Of a stretch of DNA of 20,249 nt, positions 1,146 to 16,455 are shown piece after piece (the first letter of the stretch is position 1; every line of letters begins with the position of its first letter). The stretch spans positions 1-20,249 of the IMG/VR virus record IMGVR_UViG_3300038856_000055; one strand, 5' to 3'. This DNA comes from a virus. The translations under genes and the position numbers were made by a program. The notes under the pieces were generated by a model. The model ran no database searches, was not told where the DNA came from, and saw only the letters and a list, made by a program, of their open reading frames with translations.

Positions 1146-1517
1146 ATGAGTAGCAAATACACGGCGGAGCAAGTCGCAAGCGCGTTAACTGAATCACAGG
1201 GTATGGTAACAAACGCTGCCCGTCGCTTGGGTTGCACACGCAAAACGGTTTACAATTACATCGAGAAATATGTCACAGTTCGGGAAGCATTAGACGACGC
1301 CCGCGAGTCACTTGGAGACCGTATCGAGGCGACTTTGTTATCAGAGGCATTCGGTAACTCGAAAGAAAACAAAGACCCGAATATTACCGCTTTGATATTC
1401 CTTGCCAAAACCCACCCGGCTATGCGTAAACGCGGGTACGCAGAGCGCACCGAAGTCACGGGCGCGGACGGTGGCGCGATTATCTTTAAAAGCGCACAAT
1501 CGCTAGACGATGTATGA
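1146..1517 (+). CDS. terS: Terminase small subunit (HTH DNA-binding)
   Basis: This 123-residue protein has an N-terminal helix-turn-helix, roughly residues 5-40 (TAEQVASALTESQG, AARRLGCTRKTVYNYIEKY), typical of small terminase subunits that recognise the packaging site. The C-terminal part contains MRKRGYAERTEVTGADGG (100-117), a pattern I associate with phage small terminases. It lies directly upstream of the large subunit and overlaps it in ATGA, as expected for a terminase pair. No clear Shine-Dalgarno precedes the ATG. A 16-codon ORF starting MARPTKLT ends in ATGA overlap at this start (1099-1149), so translation may be coupled or the true N-terminus may differ. A small HTH regulator is the alternative, but position favours terminase. 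Confidence 0.8.
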   Translation: MSSKYTAEQVASALTESQGMVTNAARRLGCTRKTVYNYIEKYVTVREALDDARESLGDRIEATLLSEAFGNSKENKDPNITALIFLAKTHPAMRKRGYAERTEVTGADGGAIIFKSAQSLDDV

Positions 1518-2836
1518 TTCTAGCCTACGATAGATTGCAAGGCGCACCGAAGCTATACGGTGGCGCTGACAAGTTCTGGAAGTACAAGGGGCAAGAGGTG
1601 ATATTATCCGGCCCTTACGAAACCGGAAAAACGTATGCTGCCCTGCTCAAACTTCATGCAGTCTTAGTCAAGTATCCGAACGCCCGCGCCTTCATTACAC
1701 GGCAAACCTATAAGAGCCTGCTATCGACTGCGATTGTGACCTACGAAAACAAGGTATTACCGACACATCCCGATAGCCCGCACTCCCCTATTCGCAAGTA
1801 TGGCAAAAGCAAGCCGGAATTCTATGAGTATCCCAACGGGTCTAATTTGCTGGTGGTCGGTATGGATAACCCTGACAAGATTCTATCCGGCGAATTCGAT
1901 TTTGGATACGTGAATCAAGCCGAAGAAATCACACTTGACGCATGGGAGAAACTCGTCGGTCGTTGCACCGGACGCGCCGGCAACGCACCGTATACGCAGG
2001 TCATGGGGGATTGCAACCCAGCGCACCCGCAACACTGGATTCTACACCGTGCGCCGCTGGAACTCTTTGAGCAATTGCACCAGCATAACCCATCCTTGTA
2101 TGACCAACAGAAGCAAGAGTGGACAACGCAGGGCAAGAAAACCATTGCTATCTTGAGCAGCCTCACAGGGATACGCAAGGAGCGCGGCTTCAAAGGTAAA
2201 TGGGTAGCGGCTGAGGGCGTGGTTTACGAGTACCTGCAAGACACACACCGCATCAAACGCGAGGATGCACCGGAAATCGTTAGCTGGTACCTTGCAATCG
2301 ACTTCGGATATACCAATCCTTTTGTGTGCCAATTGTGGGGCGTGGACAGAGATGGGCGCTTGTACCTATGGCAAGAAATCTACATGACCAAGCGCACCGT
2401 GAACGCGCATATTCCCGACATCAAGAAAATGATTGAAGGCAAGCAGATAACCGCTATCATCGCAGACCACGACGCCGAAGATCGAGCCACCCTACACGAA
2501 GCCGGATTGCATACGATAGCCGCGAAAAAAGATATTCGCGTCGGCATTCAGGCAGTCGAGGAACGGCTTAACGTGCAAGGTGATGGCAAGCCTAGATTGT
2601 ATATCACTGAGGGCGCGTGCATCGAGGCAGACCGTGACTTATATCGCGAGTACCCCGGCGACTTGCACCCATGCAGCACCGAGCATGAGTTCCCGGTATA
2701 TGCGTGGCCGCCGAGCAAAGATGGTAAAGCGGATAAGGAAGTGCCGTTGGATTTAAACAATCACGGCATGGACGCGCTACGCTATATCGTTATGCACCTT
2801 GAAAACCTACCATCCTTTACATTCCATTGGACTTAA
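1514..2836 (+). CDS. terL: Terminase large subunit (packaging ATPase/nuclease)
   Basis: This is the motor that pumps phage DNA into the prohead and cuts it. At 440 residues it is near normal length. Walker A is GPYETGKT (33-40). The Walker B region is FGYVNQAEE (130-138), with catalytic glutamate expected at 137 or 138. A coupling-like motif follows around GDCNPAHP (165-172). The RNase H-like nuclease domain begins near AIDFGYTNPF (261-270, D263), continues with IIADHDAED (315-323), and ends with NHGMDALRYIV (416-426, D420). These give the expected acidic cluster. It begins in ATGA overlap with the small subunit, and its stop abuts the portal ATG. The call is firm; the packaging type (cos or pac) cannot be told here. 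Confidence 0.95.
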   Translation: MILAYDRLQGAPKLYGGADKFWKYKGQEVILSGPYETGKTYAALLKLHAVLVKYPNARAFITRQTYKSLLSTAIVTYENKVLPTHPDSPHSPIRKYGKSKPEFYEYPNGSNLLVVGMDNPDKILSGEFDFGYVNQAEEITLDAWEKLVGRCTGRAGNAPYTQVMGDCNPAHPQHWILHRAPLELFEQLHQHNPSLYDQQKQEWTTQGKKTIAILSSLTGIRKERGFKGKWVAAEGVVYEYLQDTHRIKREDAPEIVSWYLAIDFGYTNPFVCQLWGVDRDGRLYLWQEIYMTKRTVNAHIPDIKKMIEGKQITAIIADHDAEDRATLHEAGLHTIAAKKDIRVGIQAVEERLNVQGDGKPRLYITEGACIEADRDLYREYPGDLHPCSTEHEFPVYAWPPSKDGKADKEVPLDLNNHGMDALRYIVMHLENLPSFTFHWT

Positions 2837-5125
2837 ATGGCATTCTTACGCAATCTATTTTCCCGAAAAACCGAAACCAAAGCGCAACCCGCATCGCGTT
2901 CTGCTGACCCGTTAGCATTCTATCTCAACGGCAACGGCAAACTTAGCACGCTGAAATCGAATGGCTTGATTGATACCAATTACATGCGGACGGTGGGTTT
3001 ATCGCATCTATATCATAATGCGGAGATGTATGCGAAGGCGGCGATTGCATCCGTGTGGGCTGCGAACTGTATCAACCTGCGGGCGGATACAATGGCGCGG
3101 CTAGATTTCCATGTCCGGCATAAGTACACGAAAGATATTATCCCGGAGCATCCGTTTACGATTGCGTTGGATAACTCAGAGCGCAATATTATGAGGCTCT
3201 TTGAAAAGCGCCTGCTGACATTCGGGGAAGTCTTTATTAAGCCACTCAGTAGCGATTACCAGCGACCCGGCGCACTGTGGGCATTGAATAACCTTGATGT
3301 TGATGTCGATACATCACGCGGCTATATTGATGGGTTCTGGTATACACCGAACGGCGTAAGCCAGACACACTATTACAAGCCACGCGGCAAAGGTGGCGGA
3401 CGCTTCAAGGAAATCGCTTATATCCATACCGATAATGATTTCGATGATTTCAGAGGGCTATCGAAGTTTGAACACGTTCTCTTAGAAATCCATATAGACC
3501 GTGACATCTCGCGCACCACAGCAGCCTTTTATCAGAACGATGCCCGTCCCGGCTTACTCTTGATCCCCGATGGCACACCGACACCGGATCAGATGGAACA
3601 ATTCGTTGCGAGCTGGAATATGCAATTCAAGGGGCCAAGCAAGTCCGGGCGTACTGGTTTCGCACCAACCATCTTAAAAGATGTCAAGGAATTCCAACGC
3701 CCGCCAACGGTTGATGACGTGGAGTTACGCGAAAGCGTGCGCCGTGAAATCTGCGCGGCGTTCAAAGTCCCGCTATCGATGGCGGGCGCATGGGACGATG
3801 CGACCTATCAGAGCTTGCCGGAGCAACGCCAATTCTTTTACGAAGAAACGATTATTCCAGCAGCCGAACAGAATGCCCGCGACCTGACGAAGCACGTTCT
3901 CCCCTTCTTTGATAGCAACACAGATCACGAAATCTATTTCGATGCAACCAGCATTCTCGCTCTGGTCGAGAACGTGGTTGAGAAAACCGATGTTGTGATC
4001 AAGAAGGTGCAAGCGGGTTTGTCAACCGTCAACGAGGGACGCGAAGCACTGGATATGGATAAAATCAAAGGTGGCGATATTTTCATCATGCAGTCGGGTT
4101 GGATACCCGTCCCGCAGGATGAGTTATCAACCTTTGAAGCCCCGAACACGGCGCAACCCTATCCTGAGCCTCCTGCCCCACCGCAGTTACCAGAGGGGCA
4201 ACCCGCGCAACAACTCACGCGCACGGTGTATCTCACGCCACCGGAAACGGAACACAAACACGATCACACGCATGGCCACAGCACCTTCGTACCGGATACC
4301 GATGTCATTGAAACCATCGAAGTCAAGACAGTACACGGGGAAGCCTTAGACGAGATCGGGCAATGGCGCAAGTTCCATAAGAACGGCACAGCGCAGAAGC
4401 GCGACTTCACAGCGTACATGATACGTGATGACATCGCCGCCGCGTTACGCGAGAACCTTGACGCCGCCGGACAAGATATGGACGCGATTAAGGCCGCGTT
4501 TGATATTGCTGAGATTGCCAGCGCGATTAAAGCGATTGAGGCCGTGCGTTCTAACTTTGAATTGGAAGTAAAAACCCTCATTGACGGCGCACGATTGGGA
4601 ACACTCAAGCGGATTGATTTTACAAACCGCTTGAAGAGCGTTATCCGCACACTAGGCGGCGATGCGTTCCGCGCAGGCTTAACCGATGGCGGAGTGATTA
4701 CAAATAAAGGTGAAGAGTTGAATACTGAGGATGCCGCCGTATTTGAAAGTATGGTCACGGAGCAATCCAGCTACGTGGTTGGCTTATCGGCTGCTGTTTA
4801 CAAAGAAAAACTATCCGACGCGCAGATTCAATTGAAGCCGCGCCAATGGTGGGGAAAGTCGATGCAACCGTTCTATGATAGCGGGCTATTGTCTGCCAAC
4901 CGCAACGGCATGGTGGAGATTGTCGGCACGATTGATAAGAACAGTTGCAACACCTGCAAGGCACTCGTCGGGCAACGACACCGCCGCCGGAGTATCATGG
5001 CGGCGGGCTTGATGCCCCCGTACGGGAGCGCGATACAATGTAGTGACGGTGGCTTATGTAAGCACCGTGCCATCAGTACCAATAGCCGCCCACGCGGGCG
5101 CTTATCCCGAGTGCCTAGAAAATGA
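2837..5125 (+). CDS. Portal protein fused to MuF-like head morphogenesis domain
   Basis: Residues 1 to about 425 look like an HK97-type portal, the dodecameric DNA-entry ring at one capsid vertex. Portal-like features are the AAIASVWAANCINLRADTMA helix near 69-87, the FGEVFIKP stretch (129-136) and the IHTDNDFDDFRGLSKFE block (196-212). A proline-rich linker (436-456) and a histidine-rich run HKHDHTHGH (473-481) follow. Residues 505-540 (EIGQWRKFHKN...RDFTAYMIRDD) resemble C-terminal extensions of some phage portals. The end (about 697-750) carries TIDKNSCNTCKALVGQRH and GLMPPYGSAIQCSDGGLC, a Cys/His-bearing pattern typical of MuF-like minor head proteins. At 762 residues it is much longer than a plain portal, so one gene replaces the usual portal plus MuF pair. 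The start abuts the terminase stop. Confidence 0.88.
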   Translation: MAFLRNLFSRKTETKAQPASRSADPLAFYLNGNGKLSTLKSNGLIDTNYMRTVGLSHLYHNAEMYAKAAIASVWAANCINLRADTMARLDFHVRHKYTKDIIPEHPFTIALDNSERNIMRLFEKRLLTFGEVFIKPLSSDYQRPGALWALNNLDVDVDTSRGYIDGFWYTPNGVSQTHYYKPRGKGGGRFKEIAYIHTDNDFDDFRGLSKFEHVLLEIHIDRDISRTTAAFYQNDARPGLLLIPDGTPTPDQMEQFVASWNMQFKGPSKSGRTGFAPTILKDVKEFQRPPTVDDVELRESVRREICAAFKVPLSMAGAWDDATYQSLPEQRQFFYEETIIPAAEQNARDLTKHVLPFFDSNTDHEIYFDATSILALVENVVEKTDVVIKKVQAGLSTVNEGREALDMDKIKGGDIFIMQSGWIPVPQDELSTFEAPNTAQPYPEPPAPPQLPEGQPAQQLTRTVYLTPPETEHKHDHTHGHSTFVPDTDVIETIEVKTVHGEALDEIGQWRKFHKNGTAQKRDFTAYMIRDDIAAALRENLDAAGQDMDAIKAAFDIAEIASAIKAIEAVRSNFELEVKTLIDGARLGTLKRIDFTNRLKSVIRTLGGDAFRAGLTDGGVITNKGEELNTEDAAVFESMVTEQSSYVVGLSAAVYKEKLSDAQIQLKPRQWWGKSMQPFYDSGLLSANRNGMVEIVGTIDKNSCNTCKALVGQRHRRRSIMAAGLMPPYGSAIQCSDGGLCKHRAISTNSRPRGRLSRVPRK

Positions 5126-5637
5126 TGACCCCGAAAGCAACCTCTGATAACAAAGGGGTTGATCAGCTTACACGCTTTCTAAAAGTTCATAATCAATCCG
5201 CGCTAGACTTAGCCGAAGAAACCTTCCAGGAGTTGCGTCCGCGCAATCTGGATGAGTTCCGGCGGAGTCCCCGCGTGCGGAGTTACCCGGCGGATTATCC
5301 CGGTGGGCAGTTGCCATTCGATACCCTGAAACAACAACGCTGGTACTGGGCAAACATCGGCAAGCCGTACACGCGCACCGGACGCATGACAAAGAGCTTA
5401 GAGCAAACGATAGACCGGAGCGGGAAAGCGGTCACGATTACCGCGTCCTACCCTACTGCCTCAACAAAGTATGTCTTAGGCAATATCTTAGGCGAGACCG
5501 TGCAACCGTATCAGCAACGCTTTCATGCGGCTACGGGATGGGAACTGGCTGCCCCGAAGCTTGAGCGCCATGCTGAGCATTACTATGAAACCTATGTACG
5601 CCGTTACGCGGCATTTGTTGCCTTTAGTTTTGGATAA
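5122..5637 (+). CDS. Putative HK97 gp10-like neck/tail or minor head protein
   Basis: This 171-residue protein overlaps the portal end by 4 nt. The middle has KQQRWYWANIGKPYTRTGRM followed by TKSLEQTI, and further on AVTITASYPTASTKYVLG. The pattern 'pYxRTGrLxxS..., beta-strand, tight turn near the end' is common in HK97 gp10-like and similar phage neck proteins. The N-terminal 30 residues are polar helix. I recognise the pattern but not a specific family, so the product is tentative. Its place straight after the portal would also suit a minor head protein. Confidence 0.5.
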   Translation: MMTPKATSDNKGVDQLTRFLKVHNQSALDLAEETFQELRPRNLDEFRRSPRVRSYPADYPGGQLPFDTLKQQRWYWANIGKPYTRTGRMTKSLEQTIDRSGKAVTITASYPTASTKYVLGNILGETVQPYQQRFHAATGWELAAPKLERHAEHYYETYVRRYAAFVAFSFG

Positions 5638-5646
5638 GAGGGTACG

Positions 5647-5949
5647 ATGAAACCACTGCATAAATCACTGATCACCTTACTTGATAGTATCCAGGAGCAA
5701 ATACTACCGCTAACAGATAGCGGCGTGCATGTTCAATTAGGTGTAGATAGCGGTAATTTGAGTATCAATATGATGCTTACAAAATACAGTATTCTCACGT
5801 CTGTTTGGGTTGATGACGACGATGATTTAGAAAACCCGCAGGTCTTGATTGACTTTTGTGTTAATCATTTTAAATCAGAACTACCCCGTATTCAAAGCTT
5901 TATTAAAAGTCAATCCGATCATGTATGTGATATGAGTGATAAATCATGA
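5647..5949 (+). CDS. Hypothetical protein, 100 residues
   Basis: I do not recognise this protein. It has an AGGG Shine-Dalgarno about 6 nt before the ATG and overlaps the next gene in ATGA, so it is likely translated. The N-terminal half is a helix followed by beta-like stretches (VHVQLGVDS, LSINMMLTKYSILTSVWV). A run of five aspartates sits at residues 57-61. The C-terminal half is helical (VLIDFCVNHFKSELPRIQSF). There is no signal peptide or membrane segment. Its DNA looks more AT-rich than that of its neighbours. It sits between the gp10-like gene and the capsid gene, so a small accessory head factor or a late insertion is possible. Confidence 0.6.
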   Translation: MKPLHKSLITLLDSIQEQILPLTDSGVHVQLGVDSGNLSINMMLTKYSILTSVWVDDDDDLENPQVLIDFCVNHFKSELPRIQSFIKSQSDHVCDMSDKS

Positions 5950-8270
5950 CAACCGATGAAATAACAACGTTAACAACCGATGAAATAACAACGTTAACCC
6001 CCGACGCGATAACAACGTATGATTGGGGCAACAACCCAACCGAATACTACGCAGGCGGCGCGATCAAAGCCCTCAAAAAAGCGGGTGACATCGGCGGCTA
6101 CCTCGTCAATTGGGGCAGCCCGAGCCAACGCGACGCGGCGGGCGAATGGTTTACGCCGGATACCGAGTTCCATCTTGAATACTACACAACGCGCCCTGTC
6201 CTCTTGCATCATGGTTTAGGGGAAGCGGGTAGCGTCAAGATCGGTGAAATCTACGATCTGCAAAAAGATGATCGCGGGATATACGCCCGTGCCAAATTAT
6301 ATTTAGACCACCCCGACCCGCAAATTCGCTATTGGGCAACCGAAGCATACAACCATGTCAAACGTGATAAGTTGTTTTGGTCAAGCGGGAGTAGTGGTCA
6401 TTTATTAGATAAAACATCCGACGGCGAGATTACAAAATGGGGCTTAATTGAGGGAACACTCACCCCGAATCCTGCCGAAAAAGTCCGCACCAAAGTGGAC
6501 GCCTTAAAATTTGAATGTCAGCAGTTTTTTGGTGATCGTACCGCCACGCCTAAAGAGCAACCCGCTAAAGAGGACAGCGTTACAGAGACTAAAACGACTG
6601 ATAGAAGTTTTGTCCTACCGCAAGCAATGAAACATAGACCAAAGGGTTTAAAGATGATTGATAATACAACCATCCAAGCCTTACTCGAAAGCGGGTTGAA
6701 TGCCGAGCAAGTACTCGGTGTAATCGGCGTACTTGGTGACGCTGGTGAAGCCCCTGCCGACGATGGCATGATGGCCGACGATAACATGGATGACGACGAC
6801 GAAGAAGTCATGCAAGATGACGAGTACCGGAGTGCTGAACCCCCTGTGGGCAAAAGCGCCGGTAGCCGTAAAGCCCCTGCACCGAAGCAAGATGTATCGA
6901 CACAGCTTCTTAAAGTGCAAGTAGCAAACCTGCAAAAAGAACTCAAGTCGATACAACGCGCACCCGCTACCGAAACCGTAGCTGGGCGCACGAGTCCGAA
7001 TCGGCAGGTGAAATTCAACCACCGTATTTCCAACAAATACGACAACATGAGCGCCGAAGACATGGGCTTCTTAAAGACCGTGATGGACGCCGCGATGCAA
7101 ATTCAGGGCAAGGGAAACAAGTGGATTCCACAAGATGAGGTTTCCTTTTACAAGTCTCTGAGTAGTAAGGTTGGGGATCAGAAGATTAAGATTAGTGAAG
7201 CGGCAAGTCGCGCTCTCGCTATTAAATCCGGTGATGCCACCAAAGATGACGAATTGAACTATAGCACGCAAGCCAGCTATGGTGACGAATTTGTGCCCGA
7301 ATTGTGGTCAAGCAATCTATGGCGGACACCACGCCTTGAAAATCCTGTGTTTGCAAATAGCACGGTGATTGAGATGCCGTCAAATCCGTATAGGCTTCCG
7401 ATTGAGGGTAGCGACCCCACCGTATTCGCAGTGGGCGAAACCCAAAATGAAACCGCACTGAATCTCGATAGCGGAAACTCTCCGATCCCCGATAGCAAAA
7501 TCGGTACAGTTAACACAACCATGACCGCCGCTAAACTGGCGTTACGGGTTATGTTAGCTGAGGAGCTCAATGAGGATAGCATTATCCCTGTTGTGCAACT
7601 CTGGCGTGAGCAGGCGGTGCGCGAAATGGAAGATGCCCGCGACGCTGTGATTTTGAGTGCCGATGCGTCCGCGACCTCAGCCAACATCAACTACGACGGC
7701 GCGAGTGCAACAACTTCTGTCGCCGCCGTCTCGCGCTTTCTATATGGTGGTGGTGATGGCTACTTACACGTTCCGCTTATCGAGGCAGCAACGCAAGCCG
7801 TGAACATGCAAAATGTCTCCCCTACGCTAACAAAAATCCGCGAAGCACGCGGCAAGTTAGACCGTGACATCTTCCAGAAACGCAATGAACTCGTGTACTA
7901 CTGCGATCCCGAAACCTTGCTAAAACTTGAAAGCCTTGACGAGGCGATTGTCACATCAATTAATGGTGTTGGCTCAACCTACGAAGGCCGCGAAGTAAAA
8001 GCGATTGACGGCATTCCGGTGTTCCCGACTGCGGAAATGGGACTGGCGACAAGTACAGGCGTTGTAAGCGCAACCGCAAGCAACAATGATCGCGGGCGCT
8101 TGCTTCTGGTTCACAAGCCATCATGGTACGTGGGCTTCCGGCGTCAAATGCGCGTGACCTTCGATTATTTGCATCAGTATGATGCTCATATGTTGGTGGT
8201 TACCATGCGGATGGCACTCGTTAAACGTTCGAGCGATACGGTGTCTTTGCTGTATAACATCGCTGTATAG
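5946..8270 (+). CDS. Prohead protease-scaffold-major capsid fusion polyprotein (HK97 type)
   Basis: One 774-codon frame holds three parts normally encoded by separate genes. Residues about 33-195 resemble HK97-family (U35) prohead protease: DIGGYLVNWGSPSQRDAAGE (48-67), LLHHG (86-90, likely catalytic His) and WSSGSSGHL (145-153, likely catalytic Ser), then GLIEGTLTPNPAE (166-178). Residues 237-345 are scaffold-like, with an acidic run around 268-292 and a coiled-coil-like stretch near 316-336. Residues about 370-774 are an HK97-fold major capsid protein, including LRVMLAEELNEDS and a C-terminal R-rich end with VTFDYLHQYDAHM. No stop or frameshift interrupts the frame. The 5' end carries a 24-nt tandem repeat, and a good internal start exists at codon 237. 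Maturation would require self-cleavage. Confidence 0.9.
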   Translation: MTTDEITTLTTDEITTLTPDAITTYDWGNNPTEYYAGGAIKALKKAGDIGGYLVNWGSPSQRDAAGEWFTPDTEFHLEYYTTRPVLLHHGLGEAGSVKIGEIYDLQKDDRGIYARAKLYLDHPDPQIRYWATEAYNHVKRDKLFWSSGSSGHLLDKTSDGEITKWGLIEGTLTPNPAEKVRTKVDALKFECQQFFGDRTATPKEQPAKEDSVTETKTTDRSFVLPQAMKHRPKGLKMIDNTTIQALLESGLNAEQVLGVIGVLGDAGEAPADDGMMADDNMDDDDEEVMQDDEYRSAEPPVGKSAGSRKAPAPKQDVSTQLLKVQVANLQKELKSIQRAPATETVAGRTSPNRQVKFNHRISNKYDNMSAEDMGFLKTVMDAAMQIQGKGNKWIPQDEVSFYKSLSSKVGDQKIKISEAASRALAIKSGDATKDDELNYSTQASYGDEFVPELWSSNLWRTPRLENPVFANSTVIEMPSNPYRLPIEGSDPTVFAVGETQNETALNLDSGNSPIPDSKIGTVNTTMTAAKLALRVMLAEELNEDSIIPVVQLWREQAVREMEDARDAVILSADASATSANINYDGASATTSVAAVSRFLYGGGDGYLHVPLIEAATQAVNMQNVSPTLTKIREARGKLDRDIFQKRNELVYYCDPETLLKLESLDEAIVTSINGVGSTYEGREVKAIDGIPVFPTAEMGLATSTGVVSATASNNDRGRLLLVHKPSWYVGFRRQMRVTFDYLHQYDAHMLVVTMRMALVKRSSDTVSLLYNIAV
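5949..6020 (+). repeat. 24-nt tandem repeat at the 5' end of the protease-capsid gene
   Basis: Two identical 24-nt units (5949-5972 and 5973-5996) are followed by a diverged third (5997-6020). They encode TDEITTLT-like units (TTDEITTL, TTDEITTL, TPDAITTY). The repeat stays in frame and lies before the protease domain, so copy number could vary without breaking the enzyme. Confidence 0.9.
6641..6656 (+). promoter_or_regulatory. Possible internal ribosome binding site and start (scaffold-capsid)
   Basis: AAAGGG at 6641-6646 lies 7 nt before an in-frame ATG at 6654 (Met237 of the fusion gene), exactly at the junction of the protease and scaffold-like parts. Initiation here would give a 538-residue scaffold-capsid protein without the protease, allowing more capsid than protease. 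This is a sequence-based inference only. Confidence 0.45.
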
Positions 8271-9126: not shown

Positions 9127-10287
9127 ATGAAACTATTATGGGCAAGCAACTATAGTTCACAGTCCGGCTATGCGCTGCAATCGCGCTTATTCGTGCCGCG
9201 TATCAAACAATCCGGTCACGATGTCGTTGTCTTCGAGTTATCCAATGGCTCGCGCCTCCCGTCCCTGCGCGACAATATCAAAATCCTACCGACGGGCTTA
9301 GACCCGCTGGGTGGCGATATGATGCACGCGCACTATGAACGCGAGAACGCTCATGCGGTCATTACTCTGATCGATGCGTGGGGGATGAACACGGGTGTTA
9401 TGGAAAACCTAAATTGGTTTCCGTATGCTCCGGTTGATACCTACCCGGTAGCCCCTGCGGTAGCTCATGCGGTCAGTCACGCGAAGGCGGTGATTGCGAT
9501 GTCACGGTATGGTGAAAAGCAATTCAAATCAATCGGTATGGACACGGTTTATATGCCCCACGCGATTGACCCGACCATCTGGAAACCCGGCGACAAGCAA
9601 CGCGCCCGCAACACAGCCAAAGTTAGTCCAAATACCTTCATGGTATCGTTTGTCGGCGTGAATGATAGCGTACCATCCCGCAAAGGGATTCCGGAATTGC
9701 TAATGGCGTGGCAAATCTTTAGTGCCGCACACCCGGATAGCCTGCTCTATATGCACACGACCAAACGCGGACGCTTGGCACTCGGCAATACCAGCGGGGT
9801 CGATATTAGCCAACTTATCAAGCAATTCGAGATTGATCCCGCTACGGTAAAGTTTGCTGACGAATACCAGCTTGCGACAGGCATCCCGTCAAGCGTCATG
9901 GCAACCATCGCACAAGCGGCAGATGTCCTGATTCTACCGACACGCGGCGAGGGCTTCGGCTTACCCGTACTCGAATACGCGGCAGTCGGCACGCCTGCGA
10001 TCGTGACCAATTTCGCCGCCAGTCCTGAACTCTGCTTCGATGGCTGGTTACTGGAATACGAACCGGAATGGTCATGGCAGAATGCCCTCGTGGCGAAGCC
10101 GGGCATTGCTTCTATTGTTGAGCAACTCGAAGCCGCCTATGCTGACAAAGATAACCCGCGTCGGGCGCAGAATTGTATCGCGGGCGCACGGGCGTATCAT
10201 ATTGATCATGTGTTTGCAACGTATACGAAACCCGCACTTGATAGAATCGCGGAATATGTTCTCGATAACGTGAAAGTCGGTGCGTAA
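9127..10287 (+). CDS. GT-B glycosyltransferase, family 4 type
   Basis: This is the first gene of the carbohydrate block. At 386 residues it is the usual size for a GT4 enzyme, which transfers a sugar from a nucleotide donor with retention. The N-terminal Rossmann half starts MKLLWASNYSSQSGYALQ, with the short Gly-containing acceptor loop. The domain junction carries MPHAIDPTIWKPG (143-155). The donor half has VSFVGVND (173-180) and GEGFGLPVLE, giving the EX7E motif E275/E283, then VGTPAIVTNFAASPE. No membrane helix or signal is visible, so it should be cytosolic. No strong Shine-Dalgarno is seen and the start is 3 nt after the previous stop. Donor and acceptor are unknown. Confidence 0.88.
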   Translation: MKLLWASNYSSQSGYALQSRLFVPRIKQSGHDVVVFELSNGSRLPSLRDNIKILPTGLDPLGGDMMHAHYERENAHAVITLIDAWGMNTGVMENLNWFPYAPVDTYPVAPAVAHAVSHAKAVIAMSRYGEKQFKSIGMDTVYMPHAIDPTIWKPGDKQRARNTAKVSPNTFMVSFVGVNDSVPSRKGIPELLMAWQIFSAAHPDSLLYMHTTKRGRLALGNTSGVDISQLIKQFEIDPATVKFADEYQLATGIPSSVMATIAQAADVLILPTRGEGFGLPVLEYAAVGTPAIVTNFAASPELCFDGWLLEYEPEWSWQNALVAKPGIASIVEQLEAAYADKDNPRRAQNCIAGARAYHIDHVFATYTKPALDRIAEYVLDNVKVGA

Positions 10288-10310
10288 GGGGTGTTAATGC
10301 CCTGTGACTA

Positions 10311-10319
10311 TGGTATAAT
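10311..10319 (+). promoter_or_regulatory. Extended -10 promoter ahead of the tRNA-Leu-like gene
   Basis: TGGTATAAT is a TGn plus consensus TATAAT extended -10 element. Seven bases after it is position 10326, the inferred first base of the tRNA. The -35 region is weak (TGTTAA at 10292-10297), which extended -10 promoters tolerate. It could also drive the membrane protein and glycosyltransferases downstream. Confidence 0.65.
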
Positions 10320-10325
10320 ACAGGT

Positions 10326-10420
10326 AGGCATGTGGCGAAAATGGCAGACGCGAACAGTAGAAGCTGTTTGGTGATAATCTTGAAGGAGACACCGTGTAGG
10401 TTCGAATCCTACCATGCCCA
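10326..10420 (+). tRNA. tRNA-Leu-like gene, long variable arm, 6-nt anticodon loop
   Basis: The T arm is perfect: GTAGG-TTCGAAT-CCTAC (10396-10412). Acceptor bases GGCATG (10327-10332) pair with CATGCC (10413-10418), leaving a first-pair mismatch A10326/C10419. TGGCG...ATGGCAGACGC is the D arm typical of bacterial tRNA-Leu. The variable arm is long, closed by GGTG/CACC (10370-10373/10390-10393). The best anticodon stem is AACAG/CTGTT (10353-10357/10364-10368), which leaves only six loop bases (TAGAAG), so the anticodon is not clear. It may be a decayed or non-canonical tRNA. No CCA is encoded; A10420 would be the discriminator. Confidence 0.72.
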
Positions 10421-10448
10421 TTCAGGTAGTGCAGATAAAGGACGTATC

Positions 10449-10610
10449 ATGACAACCCGTACTCGTAATATTCTAATCAGTATCAGCATTCTTGTTCTCC
10501 TGCTTCTCATTGGTATCTGGGTGGCGCAAGGTGTGATGGAAGCTACGTCAAACATTGACATCGCACTGACTGAAACCATACTCACGCGCACAGCGATTGC
10601 AGGTGATTAA
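10449..10610 (+). CDS. Small single-pass membrane protein, 53 residues
   Basis: The protein is MTTRTRN, then a strongly hydrophobic stretch of about 23 residues (ILISISILVLLLLIGIWVAQ...), then a polar Thr-rich tail of about 25 residues. The positive N-terminus suggests the N-in, C-out orientation. AAAGGA lies about 10 nt before the ATG at 10449. An upstream in-frame start at 10332 would run through the tRNA and is rejected. The stop overlaps the next glycosyltransferase start (TAATG), so the two are probably co-translated. I do not recognise a family. It could anchor the transferases at the membrane, or be a small holin-like or superinfection factor; none of these is shown. Confidence 0.6.
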   Translation: MTTRTRNILISISILVLLLLIGIWVAQGVMEATSNIDIALTETILTRTAIAGD

Positions 10611-11581
10611 TGAGAATTTGCGTCCTATCCGATTGTGTCTTCCCGACACCGACACCGGACGGTCACGGCTTGGGTCTGATGACCTGGCAGGTTGCCGAAG
10701 GGCTTAAAGGGCGGGGGCATGATGTAACATTGGTTGCCAAAGTCGGCAGTCAGTTTAGCGGGGCGCTGGTGGAAGTCGATGCAAACGGTTATCAAGGCGA
10801 AGCCCTACTCGCCCGCGATGCCATGCGCTTACACCGCAGTTATCCGTTTGATGTATTCTTAGATAACGGACACTTGCACGAACTCGCCCGCTTGTTCCCA
10901 CAGCTTCCGGTTGTGAATGTTTACCATGATGTCTATCAAGATTACGCCCGTTGTGCGGTTCTGTTATCGCACGGACAGCAAGCCGCGATGCCACCCGCAT
11001 TCGAGCAAGCACGGATTATCCCGAATGCGTTGAACCCGGATGCGTTCGTGCCATTGTACGAACATTACGAAAACCCATTTGTGTTATTCATGGGTGCGCT
11101 ATCCGAAATCAAGCAACCATTGTTAGCGATTGAAGCCTGTGCGTATATGGGACTTAATCTTGTATTGGCAGGCGGCGGGATTATCGGGCGCTTCCCAAGT
11201 GGCGGACGCGAAAACGTGGATGTTGTCGGGGCAGTTAGCGGCGCAACCAAGCGCAGCCTGCTACGGAATGCGCGGGTCTTTTTGCAACTCGGCTTGATGG
11301 AAAGCTTCGGTCTGACCACATTGGAAGCCGGGTTATCCGGGACACCTGTTGTCGGCTACCCCACTGGTGGCACGTCTGACATTATCAAGTATGGTGCGAA
11401 CGGTGTCTTTGTCCCGATGGGCGGCAACATGGTAAAAGCGGTTGCGGATGCAATAGACCGTGCATGGGATATGAACCGAGAACACGTCCGTGCTACAACG
11501 GCATCCATCTGTGATGTTGATCAGCAGATTACACGGTATGAAATCGCATTGGCTAATGCAATGGAGGGTAAGTGGTGGTAA
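10610..11581 (+). CDS. GT-B glycosyltransferase, family 4 type
   Basis: This 323-residue protein is somewhat short for GT4. The N-terminus MRICVLSDCVFPTPTPDGHG has the Gly-containing loop of GT-B enzymes, followed by QVAEGLKGRGHDVTLVAK. The hinge contains IIPNALNPDAF (136-146). The donor half has FVLFMGALSEIKQP (157-170) and ESFGLTTLEAGLSGTPVV, giving EX7E E231/E239, then YPTGGTSDII. No membrane segment is visible. The start TAATG overlaps the membrane-protein stop, and the next gene starts within its last codons. Substrates are unknown; donors would come from host pools because no nucleotide-sugar genes are present here. Confidence 0.87.
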   Translation: MRICVLSDCVFPTPTPDGHGLGLMTWQVAEGLKGRGHDVTLVAKVGSQFSGALVEVDANGYQGEALLARDAMRLHRSYPFDVFLDNGHLHELARLFPQLPVVNVYHDVYQDYARCAVLLSHGQQAAMPPAFEQARIIPNALNPDAFVPLYEHYENPFVLFMGALSEIKQPLLAIEACAYMGLNLVLAGGGIIGRFPSGGRENVDVVGAVSGATKRSLLRNARVFLQLGLMESFGLTTLEAGLSGTPVVGYPTGGTSDIIKYGANGVFVPMGGNMVKAVADAIDRAWDMNREHVRATTASICDVDQQITRYEIALANAMEGKWW

Positions 11582-12570
11582 CACTCTGGTTTAGTTATTC
11601 CCTACCCGATTACATTACCCTTGATAGTCCTGAGCCGCGCCGTAGCCCGTATCATCACGCATGGCACACAGGGAACATGCTCCGGCAAAAAGCGCAGGAA
11701 CACGGGTGGGATTTCAAGTATGTGAATCTCGATAGCACCGATCCTGTAACCATCGGGGAAGATGACATTTGCATCTATCACGCATGGTTTGATGACGGTT
11801 GCTTTAGTCAACAGGTTACGCACCAATCATGCAAAGCGAAAATCATTCTGCAGCCATTCACATTAAAAATGGTTGGCAATGAAGCCCTGGCGAGCTTACA
11901 TGAGCAATGGGGCGCGGCAGACCGTTTACTCCTGAACACCGGACGCTATTGGTGGGATGCAATAGACGGTAGCGAGTATGCACAATACAAATCGAAAGCG
12001 GTGCGACTGGATAACGTTTGCAATCCTGACCTGCATCCATTCAGTAAGCGCACATGGAACGAACCCGGCAAGCGGGCGTTTCTCTGCATTGGTTACGATA
12101 ACCCGATTAAAGGATTAGATCAGGTGGCGTTACTTGCCCGCACTACCGGAATCAAGTTGCTGCATTGCGGCACGGTTGCCCCGAATTTCTGGGACCACGT
12201 CCCGCATGTGCATAGCATGAACGGCATGGAATTTACACCGTCTACGATTGAATGGGTTTGTGATCGCTTCGATGCTTTTCTGACAATGGGGCGCTTTGAT
12301 GCCAACCCGACAACCTTGAATGAAACGGCGTGCTGGGGTTTACTCCCGTGTTGCACCGAGCAGTCTGGCTACTATGGCGGCGAGCCATTTATTGAATTGA
12401 AACTTGATGATCTCGCTTACAATATGGATGTCATCGACTGGATACAACGCGCACCGAGTATCGAGTTAGCGACGCGGCAAGCGCAAATCCGGCAGACGAT
12501 ACTTGATGAGTACACGATTGAGGCGCGACTGGATTTAATTTGGGATACGATTGCAGAGGTGGTATTGTGA
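11572..12570 (+). CDS. GT-B-like glycosyltransferase, divergent
   Basis: GGAGGG (11563-11568) stands before two adjacent GTG codons at 11572 and 11575, either of which may start the gene within the end of the upstream gene. The 332-residue protein has an N-terminal half with few known motifs and a C-terminal half resembling the donor domain of GT-B enzymes. That half includes RAFLCIGYDNPIKGLDQVALL (168-188) and RFDANPTTLNETACWGLLPCC (241-261), the latter where the EX7E region of GT4 enzymes would be. Here E251 is present, but the first glutamate is replaced by an FDANPT stretch. It may be a diverged or inactive transferase. The call rests on position and fold-like features. Confidence 0.6.
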   Translation: MVVTLWFSYSLPDYITLDSPEPRRSPYHHAWHTGNMLRQKAQEHGWDFKYVNLDSTDPVTIGEDDICIYHAWFDDGCFSQQVTHQSCKAKIILQPFTLKMVGNEALASLHEQWGAADRLLLNTGRYWWDAIDGSEYAQYKSKAVRLDNVCNPDLHPFSKRTWNEPGKRAFLCIGYDNPIKGLDQVALLARTTGIKLLHCGTVAPNFWDHVPHVHSMNGMEFTPSTIEWVCDRFDAFLTMGRFDANPTTLNETACWGLLPCCTEQSGYYGGEPFIELKLDDLAYNMDVIDWIQRAPSIELATRQAQIRQTILDEYTIEARLDLIWDTIAEVVL

Positions 12571-13490
12571 CCATTCTCATTGATGACGCGATCTTTCGCC
12601 TGCAAGCGCATGGGGGTATTAGTACCCTATGGCGCAAGCTTCTTCCTTACCTGCAACCATTGCTCCAGGATATAGAATGCCCGACAACATACTTAAGCAC
12701 CTATTACGCCGTGCCGCCCGCTTCCCTGCGCTCTATAAGCGTCGTATACGATTGTATCGCAGAGCATTATCCCGCGATCGGCGCACAGCACCCCGACGCC
12801 ACCAAGAAACGCGCCGCCATCGCCGCCGCCGACGGGGTGGTCACGATCTCGGAGTGGACAGCTACCGACGTGCGCGGATTAACCGATAAGCCTGTATTCG
12901 TTGCCCATTGCGGCACGGACATCCAACGCGCAAGCCCGGCACAAGTCGCGGCGTTCAAAGCCCGCTACGGTATCGAGAAACCGTATGTTCTGATTGTCGG
13001 CCGGCGGGGGTTGTATAAGAATGTGGGTGTCATCTATCAAGCGTGGCGCTTTTTTAACGCACAAGATAACTATCAAGTGCTGGCTATTGGGGGCGAAGAT
13101 CGCACGATAGCCGATAACCAATTTGCACAGCAGTATCATTGGCAACACGCCCACTTAGACGATAGCGATCTCGCAAGTGCCTACACCGGCGCGGCTATGG
13201 TTGTGTACCCGTCCTTATTTGAGGGCTTCGGTCTGCCTGTGCTGGAAGCAATGGCTTGCGGAACACCTGTTGTCTGTGGCGAACGCAGTGCCATCCCGGA
13301 ATTCGCAGAGGATAGCCCGTATTACGCCAATGTATTTCTACCCTTATCAGTCGCTGACGCTATGAATCAGGCGTTGCAACCAGATTTCGAGAGACAGCAA
13401 ACCGCTATGCACCGCGCCCAACTGTACACATGGGAACGGATGGCACAGCATATGAGCCAAGCAATTAAGGATATACCACATGATGAGTGA
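12567..13490 (+). CDS. GT-B glycosyltransferase, family 4 type
   Basis: I start at GTG 12567, preceded by GAGGT 6 nt upstream and overlapping the previous stop; a farther ATG at 12540 would add nine residues without a good site. The 307-residue protein has the N-terminal AHGGIST loop (14-20) seen in mannosyl/rhamnosyl-type GT4 enzymes. It continues with VVYDCIAEHYP (59-69), VVTISEWTATDV (91-102) and the hinge VFVAHCGTDI (110-119). In the donor half are YVLIVGRRGLYKNV (140-153) and FEGFGLPVLEAMACGTPVV, with EX7E E219/E227. It is cytosolic by sequence. It sits mid-operon among other transferases, so it likely adds one sugar in the same glycan. Confidence 0.88.
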   Translation: MTILIDDAIFRLQAHGGISTLWRKLLPYLQPLLQDIECPTTYLSTYYAVPPASLRSISVVYDCIAEHYPAIGAQHPDATKKRAAIAAADGVVTISEWTATDVRGLTDKPVFVAHCGTDIQRASPAQVAAFKARYGIEKPYVLIVGRRGLYKNVGVIYQAWRFFNAQDNYQVLAIGGEDRTIADNQFAQQYHWQHAHLDDSDLASAYTGAAMVVYPSLFEGFGLPVLEAMACGTPVVCGERSAIPEFAEDSPYYANVFLPLSVADAMNQALQPDFERQQTAMHRAQLYTWERMAQHMSQAIKDIPHDE

Positions 13491-14199
13491 CCCAATTTTT
13501 GTAAGCTCCCCGACCGATGTTCGCAAGGGGGACAAGGCATTAAACGCATTAGAGCAAACCAACGATACCCGCTTCGAGACAGATGACGGCGTTCTCAAGG
13601 TAGATGATGACCGCTACGCTATCGCGCAAGCCTATGAACGCTATTCATGGTTGACGCATAATATCAACATGGCCACTGACCGCAACGAATTCCACCGGGA
13701 TATGCTAGGTGGCTATGCGGCATTGCCTGATAACTTAGGTAAGTACCTCGAGCTCGGGTGCGGTGTATTCACAAATACGCGCTTCATTCTGCCTGAGCAT
13801 CCGGCGGAGAAAGTTTACCTGCTTGACCCGTTGATCAAAGATTTCGTAAGCGATCACCCGAATTGCACGTATGCAGACGGCACGCTTGTAGGTCACGATG
13901 TTGAATTCGTAGATAAGCGAATTGAGGATTGGAACACGCGCCAGAAATTTGATTGCATCGTCATGATTAATGTGATCCCGCACTGTCAGGATGCTCTCGC
14001 AATCCTTGATTTCATCCGTAAGCACATCAAAAAAGGTGGCTATGTGGTCTTAGGCGAATTCCCGCGTGAACATAGCGCCGCCACGCATTACGACGCCGGA
14101 CACCCGCTAGCTTTGAAAGCGCATATCCTTGAGGACTTCTTGAGCGAGTTTGAGGAAGTCTATCGCAACGGGTGGTATTTCATCGGGCAGGCTACATGA
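13480..14199 (+). CDS. Class I SAM-dependent methyltransferase
   Basis: This 239-residue protein has the Rossmann-fold methyltransferase signature. Motif I is YLELGCGVFTNT (89-100), an acidic residue follows at VYLLDP (112-117, D116), and the motif IV region is FDCIVMINVIPHC (157-169). KKGGYVVLGEFPRE (184-197) follows as motif V/VI-like. AAGGA lies 8 nt before the ATG, and the gene overlaps its neighbour upstream. Set among glycosyltransferases, it most likely O-methylates a sugar of the glycan, as methyltransferases in bacterial polysaccharide clusters do. A DNA or protein target cannot be ruled out, though it lacks DNA-methylase motifs such as DPPY. The first 60 residues are not part of the core fold. 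Confidence 0.82.
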   Translation: MMSDPIFVSSPTDVRKGDKALNALEQTNDTRFETDDGVLKVDDDRYAIAQAYERYSWLTHNINMATDRNEFHRDMLGGYAALPDNLGKYLELGCGVFTNTRFILPEHPAEKVYLLDPLIKDFVSDHPNCTYADGTLVGHDVEFVDKRIEDWNTRQKFDCIVMINVIPHCQDALAILDFIRKHIKKGGYVVLGEFPREHSAATHYDAGHPLALKAHILEDFLSEFEEVYRNGWYFIGQAT

Positions 14200-14975
14200 G
14201 CCACTACCCATCCCGCCATCATCCGATTTACATGCTCCAGGACGCCCTACACGCGCAATCTGTTGGCGCTGTATTCCATCGGGATACAACATCGGCGGGT
14301 ATGTGGTCACTTGAGATTGATGGCCGTCTGGTGGTCTGGTGCATTGACATCCGTTGGCAACATGAACGCGACGCGCACGAGATGGATATACGCGGTTTAC
14401 AAGATAACGGGGCGCTGATTTGTTGCGCTCAGAAACAAGACGCGGCGCACTTCGGTGGCAAATGGCTACCGTTAGCGGTCACACCGGGCTACGCGCCACC
14501 GGAGCAACCTGTTACTAAGCTAACTGATGTCGCGTTTGTAGGCTATATACGGGATAAAGAACGCGAACAAATGTTACTCGATATTAATTCTAAATTCAGT
14601 CTATCCTCCGTGCAGGGGCAATTCGGCGCGGATGCTGTGAGTAACTACCATCAGGCGCGGCTCGGCGTGAATGTGCCGACGCGCTACGGACACCCGCAAG
14701 CGTATGACAGCGCGAACATGCGCTTATTTGAAGTCATGGCAACCGAAACACCTGTTGTTACCCCGCGTGCGGAGTACCTAGCAGACTTAGGGTTAGTAAA
14801 TGAGCATAATTGTTTTATGTACGATAGCCCGCAGGATTTGCTAGACGTAATCGAGAAAGCTTTATCAGGTCGGTATGATTTAGACGGTATCGGCGAGGAA
14901 GCATCTTATCTATGCAACGAGCGCCATACCTATACCCACCGTGCAACACAAGTTATGGAGTGGTTGGATGAGTGA
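14196..14975 (+). CDS. CgeB-like glycosyltransferase (GT-B, group 1_2 type)
   Basis: The start at 14196 overlaps the methyltransferase stop in ATGA; an extension to 14172 lies inside that gene and is rejected. The 259-residue protein has DVAFVGYIRDKEREQML (111-127). Further on is SNYHQARLGVNVPTRYGHPQAYDSANMRLFEVMATETPVVTP (149-190), split by motifs typical of the CgeB/DUF3880-linked glycosyltransferase group: YxxARxxVN, the R-x-FEVMA segment and xTPVVTPR. The N-terminal half is shortened relative to full GT-B enzymes. No membrane segment is present. Acceptor and donor are unknown. It is the fifth GT-B-type enzyme in the block. Confidence 0.8.
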   Translation: MSHYPSRHHPIYMLQDALHAQSVGAVFHRDTTSAGMWSLEIDGRLVVWCIDIRWQHERDAHEMDIRGLQDNGALICCAQKQDAAHFGGKWLPLAVTPGYAPPEQPVTKLTDVAFVGYIRDKEREQMLLDINSKFSLSSVQGQFGADAVSNYHQARLGVNVPTRYGHPQAYDSANMRLFEVMATETPVVTPRAEYLADLGLVNEHNCFMYDSPQDLLDVIEKALSGRYDLDGIGEEASYLCNERHTYTHRATQVMEWLDE

Positions 14976-15045
14976 TTTAAAACACACTTTCAGAAATGCG
15001 CGACGCGACAGCATCCAAGCCTACAAAAAGGTACGCAATGGTTAG
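14968..15045 (+). CDS. Possible 25-residue basic peptide
   Basis: A 26-codon ORF (MSDLKHTFRNARRDSIQAYK...) starts inside the end of the CgeB-like gene and ends 8 nt inside the sulfotransferase gene. Both junctions overlap in the way other genes in this operon do. The peptide is helical-looking and basic. It may serve only to carry ribosomes to the sulfotransferase start, or be a chance ORF. No homology is recognised. Confidence 0.3.
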   Translation: MSDLKHTFRNARRDSIQAYKKVRNG

Positions 15046-15697
15046 CCAACTCGCGTTCTTGCATATCCCAAAAACGGGCGGGCGTACCATGATTGAACTG
15101 TGTCGCTATTTCTTTCGCCCTGATCAATGCGACGTGGTGGAAACCCTATCCCGTCCCTATCAGAATGATGCGGCGAGATTTGTCCATAGCCACTTTCCCT
15201 ACGATTGCTTACCACCAACGGATACCCGTTTGACATTTACGCTATTACGAGAACCCGGCGCACGGATTGCAAGCTATTATCAGATGTGCCTAAAATCGCG
15301 TCCTGAACATTGGAATGCCTATGGGACATTCTGGCAAGGCGGTAAGCCGATGCACATTCTCGATTTTGCGAGTAATAAAATCGGGATGACTGACCAAGTA
15401 GATAACGCAATGGTACGGCAACTCCATAGTTATAAGGCGTTGGTTAGTCCCAAGCCTGTTACCGAAGCCATGACACAAACCGCTATACAAAATCTACAAA
15501 CGTTGATGGTCGGGTTTCAAGATGATTACGATAGTTTTGTGGATCGGCTATGTGATGTGATGACGTGGCAGAAGCCGCGCTATACCAGTAACAATCAATC
15601 GTATCCGTACACGGTAGATGAGAACATTCTCAAAGAAATACGCGGGATAAATAAGTGGGATTGTATGCTCTATAAATGGGCAAAAAGGAACTTATGA
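15038..15697 (+). CDS. Sulfotransferase (PAPS-dependent)
   Basis: This 219-residue protein transfers a sulfate group from PAPS, most likely to a sugar hydroxyl. The 5'-phosphosulfate loop is AFLHIPKTGGRTM (6-18), with K12 and T17 in the expected places. The 3'-phosphate binding segment is TLLREPGARIASYY (68-81), with R71 and S79. SHFPYD (51-56) matches the HxHxPY region of the Sulfotransfer_2 group. I start at ATG 15038, with AAAAGG 6 nt upstream, because the fold begins there; the longer frame from 14996 adds an unconserved stretch. No transmembrane anchor is present, unlike most eukaryotic carbohydrate sulfotransferases. It lies between two glycosyltransferase genes and overlaps the next in ATGA, supporting a role in decorating the same glycan. 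Confidence 0.88.
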   Translation: MVSQLAFLHIPKTGGRTMIELCRYFFRPDQCDVVETLSRPYQNDAARFVHSHFPYDCLPPTDTRLTFTLLREPGARIASYYQMCLKSRPEHWNAYGTFWQGGKPMHILDFASNKIGMTDQVDNAMVRQLHSYKALVSPKPVTEAMTQTAIQNLQTLMVGFQDDYDSFVDRLCDVMTWQKPRYTSNNQSYPYTVDENILKEIRGINKWDCMLYKWAKRNL

Positions 15698-16455
15698 GAG
15701 TTAGTGCGATTGTTTCCACCTACAACAGCGAACGCTTTTTCAAAGGGTGTATAGACGACCTGCTGAACCAGACACTCTGGCAACAAGGCGACCTTGAAAT
15801 CGTTGTCATCAATGCGGGTAGTACGCAAGGTGAATTGTTCCTGATTAAAGAGTACTTGCGGCAAGGCATCCCGATCACGGTGATTACCACAATGCGCGAG
15901 CCGTTGTATGTCTCATGGAATCGAGGCATACGGATTGCAAGCGGTGAGTATATTACCAACGCCAACACCGATGATCGCCACGCGCCCGATGCGTATGAGA
16001 AACAAGCGGCGTATTTAGACGCGCACCCCACCGTCGGGCTTGTGTACGCTGATGCTTATGTCACAACAACACCCAATGCGACATGGGATAGCGACTATGA
16101 TTTATGCGACGAACCACCCTATCAGGAAGGGGTGCTTCAATGGCCTGAATATAACGCGCTAGATTTATTACGACATTGCTACATGGGGCAAGCCCCGATG
16201 TGGCGACGTGACCTGCACACGCAAGCGGGCTTATTCGATGAAAGCTTTATCATTGCCGGCGACTATGAGATGTGGTTACGGTTAGCCGTTTGCGGGATTC
16301 AGATGGCGAAGTTACACGATATTTTAGGCTTATTCTATTGGCATCCGTCACAGCTCGGACGGGACAACCAGCAACATAGCGCATACGAAAGTAGACGCGC
16401 AATCTTGAGGCATAAATTAGCAATCGAGGCACAATGGCAACCCTCACCAACCTAG
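15694..16455 (+). CDS. GT-A glycosyltransferase, family 2
   Basis: This inverting family 2 transferase has 253 residues. It starts MRVSAIVSTYNSERFFKGCI, the classic nucleotide-binding beginning. NAGSTQG (40-46) stands where DGSTD usually lies. SWNRGIRIASGEYITNANTDDR (74-95) contains the DXD-like TDD (92-94), and AGDYEMWLRLAV (188-199) matches the ED-W-xR acceptor-side motif. I start at 15694, with AAAAAGGA just upstream and ATGA overlap with the sulfotransferase stop. There is no membrane segment, so it is cytosolic rather than a polyprenol-linked GT2. Its 3' end overlaps the connector gene by 22 nt, tying the glycan block to the structural genes. Confidence 0.9.
   Translation: MRVSAIVSTYNSERFFKGCIDDLLNQTLWQQGDLEIVVINAGSTQGELFLIKEYLRQGIPITVITTMREPLYVSWNRGIRIASGEYITNANTDDRHAPDAYEKQAAYLDAHPTVGLVYADAYVTTTPNATWDSDYDLCDEPPYQEGVLQWPEYNALDLLRHCYMGQAPMWRRDLHTQAGLFDESFIIAGDYEMWLRLAVCGIQMAKLHDILGLFYWHPSQLGRDNQQHSAYESRRAILRHKLAIEAQWQPSPT

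Follow-up and report, generated by a model that had tools for sequence, protein, structure and literature searches.

Organization of the fusion gene and its surroundings

The window analysed here, an entire virus record of 20,249 bases, carries a gene of 774 codons in which a protease, a scaffold-like region and a capsid domain follow one another with no stop inside the frame (Table 1), as the earlier note had proposed. The stop codon of an upstream 100-aa frame overlaps the ATG of the fusion gene (ATGA, 5946–5949), and with the genes for terminase and portal upstream, the fusion gene sits within an ordinary head module. A Mom-like DNA modification protein (331–978; PF25680, E 7e-48; phrog_1384, E 1e-51) adjoins the terminase genes. 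About eight carbohydrate-active genes in succession (9127–16455) come after the small genes that follow the capsid gene; five have glycosyltransferase Pfam matches, and the others comprise a methyltransferase gene, a sulfotransferase-like gene and a gene for a 332-aa protein that gave no match. Their products possibly decorate the virion or the host surface.

Table 1. Features of the fusion gene and the adjoining head module (positions are those of the window)
Feature	Position	Strand	Basis or remark
Terminase small and large subunits, portal (head packaging)	1146..5125	+	Upstream of the fusion gene
Protease-scaffold-capsid fusion gene	5946..8270	+	774 aa, 85.2 kDa
Prohead protease domain, S78-like, residues 38–179	6057..6482	+	AlphaFold with alignment, conserved columns, profile match
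His89 codon, likely catalytic histidine	6210..6212	+	Invariant, 35/35 fused proteases
Ser146-Ser147 codons, likely catalytic serine	6381..6386	+	Ser146 34/35, Ser147 31/35
Low-confidence linker, residues 180–236	6483..6653	+	Predicted structure; probably disordered
AAAGGG, Shine-Dalgarno-like	6641..6646	+	7 nt before internal ATG, -4.5 kcal/mol
Scaffold-like region, residues 237–439	6654..7262	+	Helices, acidic stretch, long helix
Putative scaffold-capsid gene nested in the same frame, starting at M237	6654..8270	+	538 aa, 58.7 kDa; junction start shared by relatives
HK97-fold major capsid domain, residues 440–774	7263..8267	+	Profiles and structural matches

Domains of the fusion protein

Structure prediction gave a pLDDT of 35 without an alignment and of 67 with an alignment of 36 sequences, the protease and capsid domains then being confident; AlphaFold with the alignment folds residues 38–179 at a pLDDT of about 90. 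A Pfam search with the window protein alone returned no match, whereas PF04586 is matched by 6 of the 36 aligned members, among them a fused relative (L067) that shows Peptidase_S78 (1e-11) and Phage_capsid (1.2e-7) in a single frame. The window protein aligns to its relatives (E 3e-12 to L009), and in a profile-profile comparison the protease of its family gives a match of 95.8% with a group of proteases of S78 type. The two motifs previously picked out as protease signatures, LLHHG and SSGSSGH, lie at residues 86–90 and 146–152, and the putative active-site residues fall in conserved columns of the 35 fused genes aligned. The domain is probably S78-like on these comparisons, with His89 and Ser146 as likely catalytic residues.

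The middle of the protein (residues 180–440) is predicted to be disordered and helical and is acidic. Helices are predicted at residues 240–264, and the acidic stretch at ∼265–315 (pI 4.05) leads into a long predicted helix of 22 residues at 315–336, in agreement with the acidic, coiled-coil linker described earlier. Position, composition and predicted helices together suggest that residues 237–439 may act as a scaffold. The capsid fold claimed for the C-terminal part is confirmed there by matches to TIGR01554 (E 9.4e-8, above the curated cut-off) and to phrog_10 'major head protein' (E 4.5e-7), as well as by the capsids of T5, HK97 and GTA, which match residues ∼460–774 with Z of 14–17 over 220–264 residues (Foldseek/VIA). 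When the whole model was searched against solved structures, the match list was filled by capsids.

Fused and split relatives

Relatives were reached by way of the terminase, then of L009-type fusions and then of the capsid. A tblastn search of the window protein against the phage collection gave no match, a peptide-pattern scan of viral contigs found no relatives, and scans of genome contigs likewise found none. The resulting set comprises 35 distinct fused genes including that of the window, with no pair above 85% identity, and in addition L081 (fused frame 3684–6071). An artefact of assembly or sequencing, or two genes in reality, had to be considered since the window is one contig only and more distant relatives have split genes; we give this reading negligible weight, as 35 other distinct contigs, from many different records, are fused at the same domain border. 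The fusion is therefore no artefact, and these contigs rule out a hidden frameshift as well.

The fused state is common to the nearest relatives (L061–L066), which have no stop or frameshift between the domains, whereas the more distant L014, L070, L072, L073 and L075 encode protease and capsid in separate genes; the break that the earlier note had named as contrary evidence is thus confined to the distant relatives. Fused and split genes are interspersed in the tree of capsids, where three changes are needed and at least two are forced. Fusion or fission was thus repeated, and, given the split modules of the distant relatives, both probably occurred. Two close split relatives, L014 (15090–15160) and L075 (4550–4610), are distinguished by a single base immediately ahead of the capsid ATG (CTACCATGAG and CTACCAATGAG, respectively), and as a result their protease and capsid genes overlap in different frames. 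Changes of one base at the protease/capsid border could thus join the two genes or separate them.

Two further arrangements were seen. In Salinibacter phage 5_12 (L060, 2027–4831) the same protease domain occupies residues 668–814 of a 951-aa frame that lies upstream of a separate 1383-base gene, which is another kind of fusion. In IMGVR_UViG_3300038379_000537 (L009/L022 and L024) the fused gene crosses the contig ends; these overlap by ∼120 bases with one mismatch, and the record is therefore probably circular.

A conserved candidate in-frame start at the protease/scaffold border

Nearly all of the fused genes examined carry, at the border between protease and scaffold, a Shine-Dalgarno-like motif with an in-frame ATG downstream of it, as exemplified by ACAGGAGTAAAGAAA-ATG (L034), AATAAGGAGTTTACA-ATG (L041) and AACGGAGGTATTGAG-ATG (L057). 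We scored such sites by the energy of the duplex with the anti-Shine-Dalgarno sequence. Across the 35 genes the best junction site has a mean of -7.28 kcal/mol, as compared with -4.23 ± 0.24 kcal/mol for equal numbers of the genes' own other in-frame ATGs (z -12.9), and a junction site of -5 kcal/mol or below is present in 34 of the 35 genes as opposed to 13% of 387 other internal ATGs. When, with no selection for signal, each gene is represented by the first ATG that lies 15 or more codons beyond the protease, 26 of 35 genes still have a site at or below -5 kcal/mol against the baseline of 13% (p 4e-16, a value that serves only as a guide because the genes are related). Averaged over 47 genes, the junction window ranks at the 5th percentile among the windows of the linker; the ATG was picked as the best of a few, a choice that would by itself give about the 25th.

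The same signature is found outside this family. Among fusions of an S78 protease with a gpT-like capsid, a separate lineage known from isolated phages, 12 genes average -6.8 against -3.6 ± 0.49 kcal/mol (0 of 20,000 draws), and a junction site is also present in three ClpP-type fusions (Gifsy-2, D14L and mEp043); in Gifsy-2 and its kin another site, equally strong or stronger, occurs within the protease part. The split relatives L014, L075 and L070 begin their capsid gene at the equivalent position, and this gene has its own Shine-Dalgarno. The motif overlies differing peptides (KE, QE, GV, GG and EG) in two unrelated capsid lineages, and its codon phases are distributed 31, 15 and 1, so that mainly two of the three are used. 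Shuffling synonymous codons with the protein fixed gave a Fisher p of 0.04, with 2 of 35 genes individually significant, which is a weak test because the motif is written in the codons of linker residues (Lys-Glu, Gly-Val) that the shuffle holds fixed. As a control we scored phage lambda, where the recorded Nu3 start (5132) reaches -6.9 kcal/mol and a downstream in-frame ATG of gene C (L096, 5342) is best at -9.7 kcal/mol; the score finds scaffold starts without showing which of them operates.

In the window gene a Shine-Dalgarno-like site is lacking at M228, which is the first ATG downstream of the protease, and the candidate start is M237, which in the predicted structure follows the disordered linker and precedes the first helix of the scaffold. 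Its site is stronger than that of the fusion gene's own start (-2.3 kcal/mol) and than those of 11 of the 18 window genes whose starts were scored, and ranks 4 of the 20 in-frame ATGs scored. Since this is a moderate site, the proposed nested start in the window gene rests mainly on homology.

Weighing of alternative readings

Taken together, the domain assignments and the junction start make it quite probable that a tailed virus here carries an S78-like maturation protease, a scaffold (delta) and an HK97-fold capsid in one tripartite head gene, and that this gene yields two co-terminal proteins, a rare full-length one and a commoner scaffold-capsid one. Initiation at 5946 would give a minor protease-scaffold-capsid protein of 85.2 kDa, and initiation at the internal ATG at 6654 (M237) a scaffold-capsid protein of 58.7 kDa that would form the bulk of the shell. 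The small number of full-length copies would join the assembly by way of their capsid parts and so carry the protease into the procapsid, there to release itself by cleavage and remove the scaffold. Use of the internal start, the ratio of the products and the cleavages are steps that we infer, and we hold the two-product step with fair confidence. The expectation of equal amounts of protease and capsid, which the earlier note had tied to translation of the whole frame, is probably wrong, as an in-frame ribosome-binding site and ATG are conserved at the protease/scaffold border; with two products, the puzzle posed by a one-to-one ratio would not arise.

Alternatively, only the full-length fusion is made, each subunit carries its own protease, and self-cleavage once the shell has assembled produces protease, scaffold and capsid in equal amounts, in which case the junction motif would be a by-product of a linker rich in Lys, Glu and Gly. 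The frame is indeed continuous, the shuffle ties much of the motif strength to the amino acids, and the window's own site is moderate. Such a by-product does not account well for a motif that is spaced like a ribosome-binding site ahead of the junction ATG (mean at the 5th percentile in 47 genes) and recurs over different peptides in two unrelated capsid lineages; it may also be argued that several hundred 16-kDa proteases per shell would take up much of the inner space. We regard this alternative as unlikely. Still less probable, to our minds improbable outright, is that the internal start is a disused relic of a recent gene fusion. The mixture of split and fused genes on the capsid tree and the corresponding position of the capsid start in split relatives would fit a relic, but the site persists across fused proteins that are only ∼17–25% identical, a divergence over which an unused motif should have decayed.

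Relation to known head genes

The architecture of protease, scaffold and capsid is not new, and the window gene is a new, distant case of it; the shared frame claimed by the earlier note stands, and the layout is not unusual, several phage groups having been published or annotated with it. In Gifsy-2, a Salmonella phage, a protease, a middle region and an HK97-fold capsid are reportedly joined in one gene, the fused frame of which has 696 codons. 'Tripartite capsid gene' is the term in the title of Effantin et al. 2010, as cited in PMC8814770. Gifsy-2 resembles the window gene in its one-frame tripartite layout and in a strong Shine-Dalgarno-ATG at the protease/scaffold junction, but its protease is ClpP-like rather than S78-like and its capsid comes from a different family. 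Pseudomonas phage MD8 (gp5) and MD8-like phages also have a single protease-scaffold-capsid gene, with protease and capsid of other families (lambda protease and Mu capsid by HHpred), according to the part of PMC8508860 that deals with them; section 2.5 of that paper, on MD8, does not mention an internal start. In isolated phages, Stenotrophomonas S1 gp8, Shewanella 1/44 and Rhodobacter RcBaka gp10, like the window gene, link an S78-type protease to a capsid through a linker with a Shine-Dalgarno-ATG, although the capsid is of another family (gpT-like); PHROG 4523, which holds such S78-gpT-like fusions, is annotated 'major head and protease protein'. Capsid-protease fusions have been called common in siphoviruses with small genomes (PMC9671004), and one has been noted in the actinophage ScienceWizSam of Arthrobacter (PMC9753647). 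The literature searched, the reach of which did not extend to the Gifsy-2 paper, yielded no mention of a conserved internal start in fusions of this kind.

Lambda C/Nu3 and herpesvirus UL26/UL26.5 each pair a long, protease-bearing protein with a short, scaffold-bearing one in a common frame and with a common end. The lambda C/Nu3 overlap is cited in PMC8508860. An in-frame border start with a ribosome-binding site, as in lambda C/Nu3, is found across the present family and, with moderate strength, in the window. In both of these known systems the capsid is a separate gene, whereas in the window it would be part of both products; moreover, UL26.5 has its own promoter, whereas the internal start of the window gene would be translational.

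Fused protease-capsid genes are widespread, and how the phages that carry them avoid a protease on every subunit is an obvious question, to which a conserved internal start would be a concrete answer. With slightly less assurance than for the window gene itself, we think it probable that such fusion genes are generally two-product genes, in which an internal border start, kept in at least three separate protease-capsid pairings, would yield scaffold-capsid in excess and the protease would be a minor, built-in passenger of the shell. If true, the principle of lambda C/Nu3 and UL26/UL26.5 would extend to genes of which the capsid is a part, and current annotations of fused genes would miss their probable main product.
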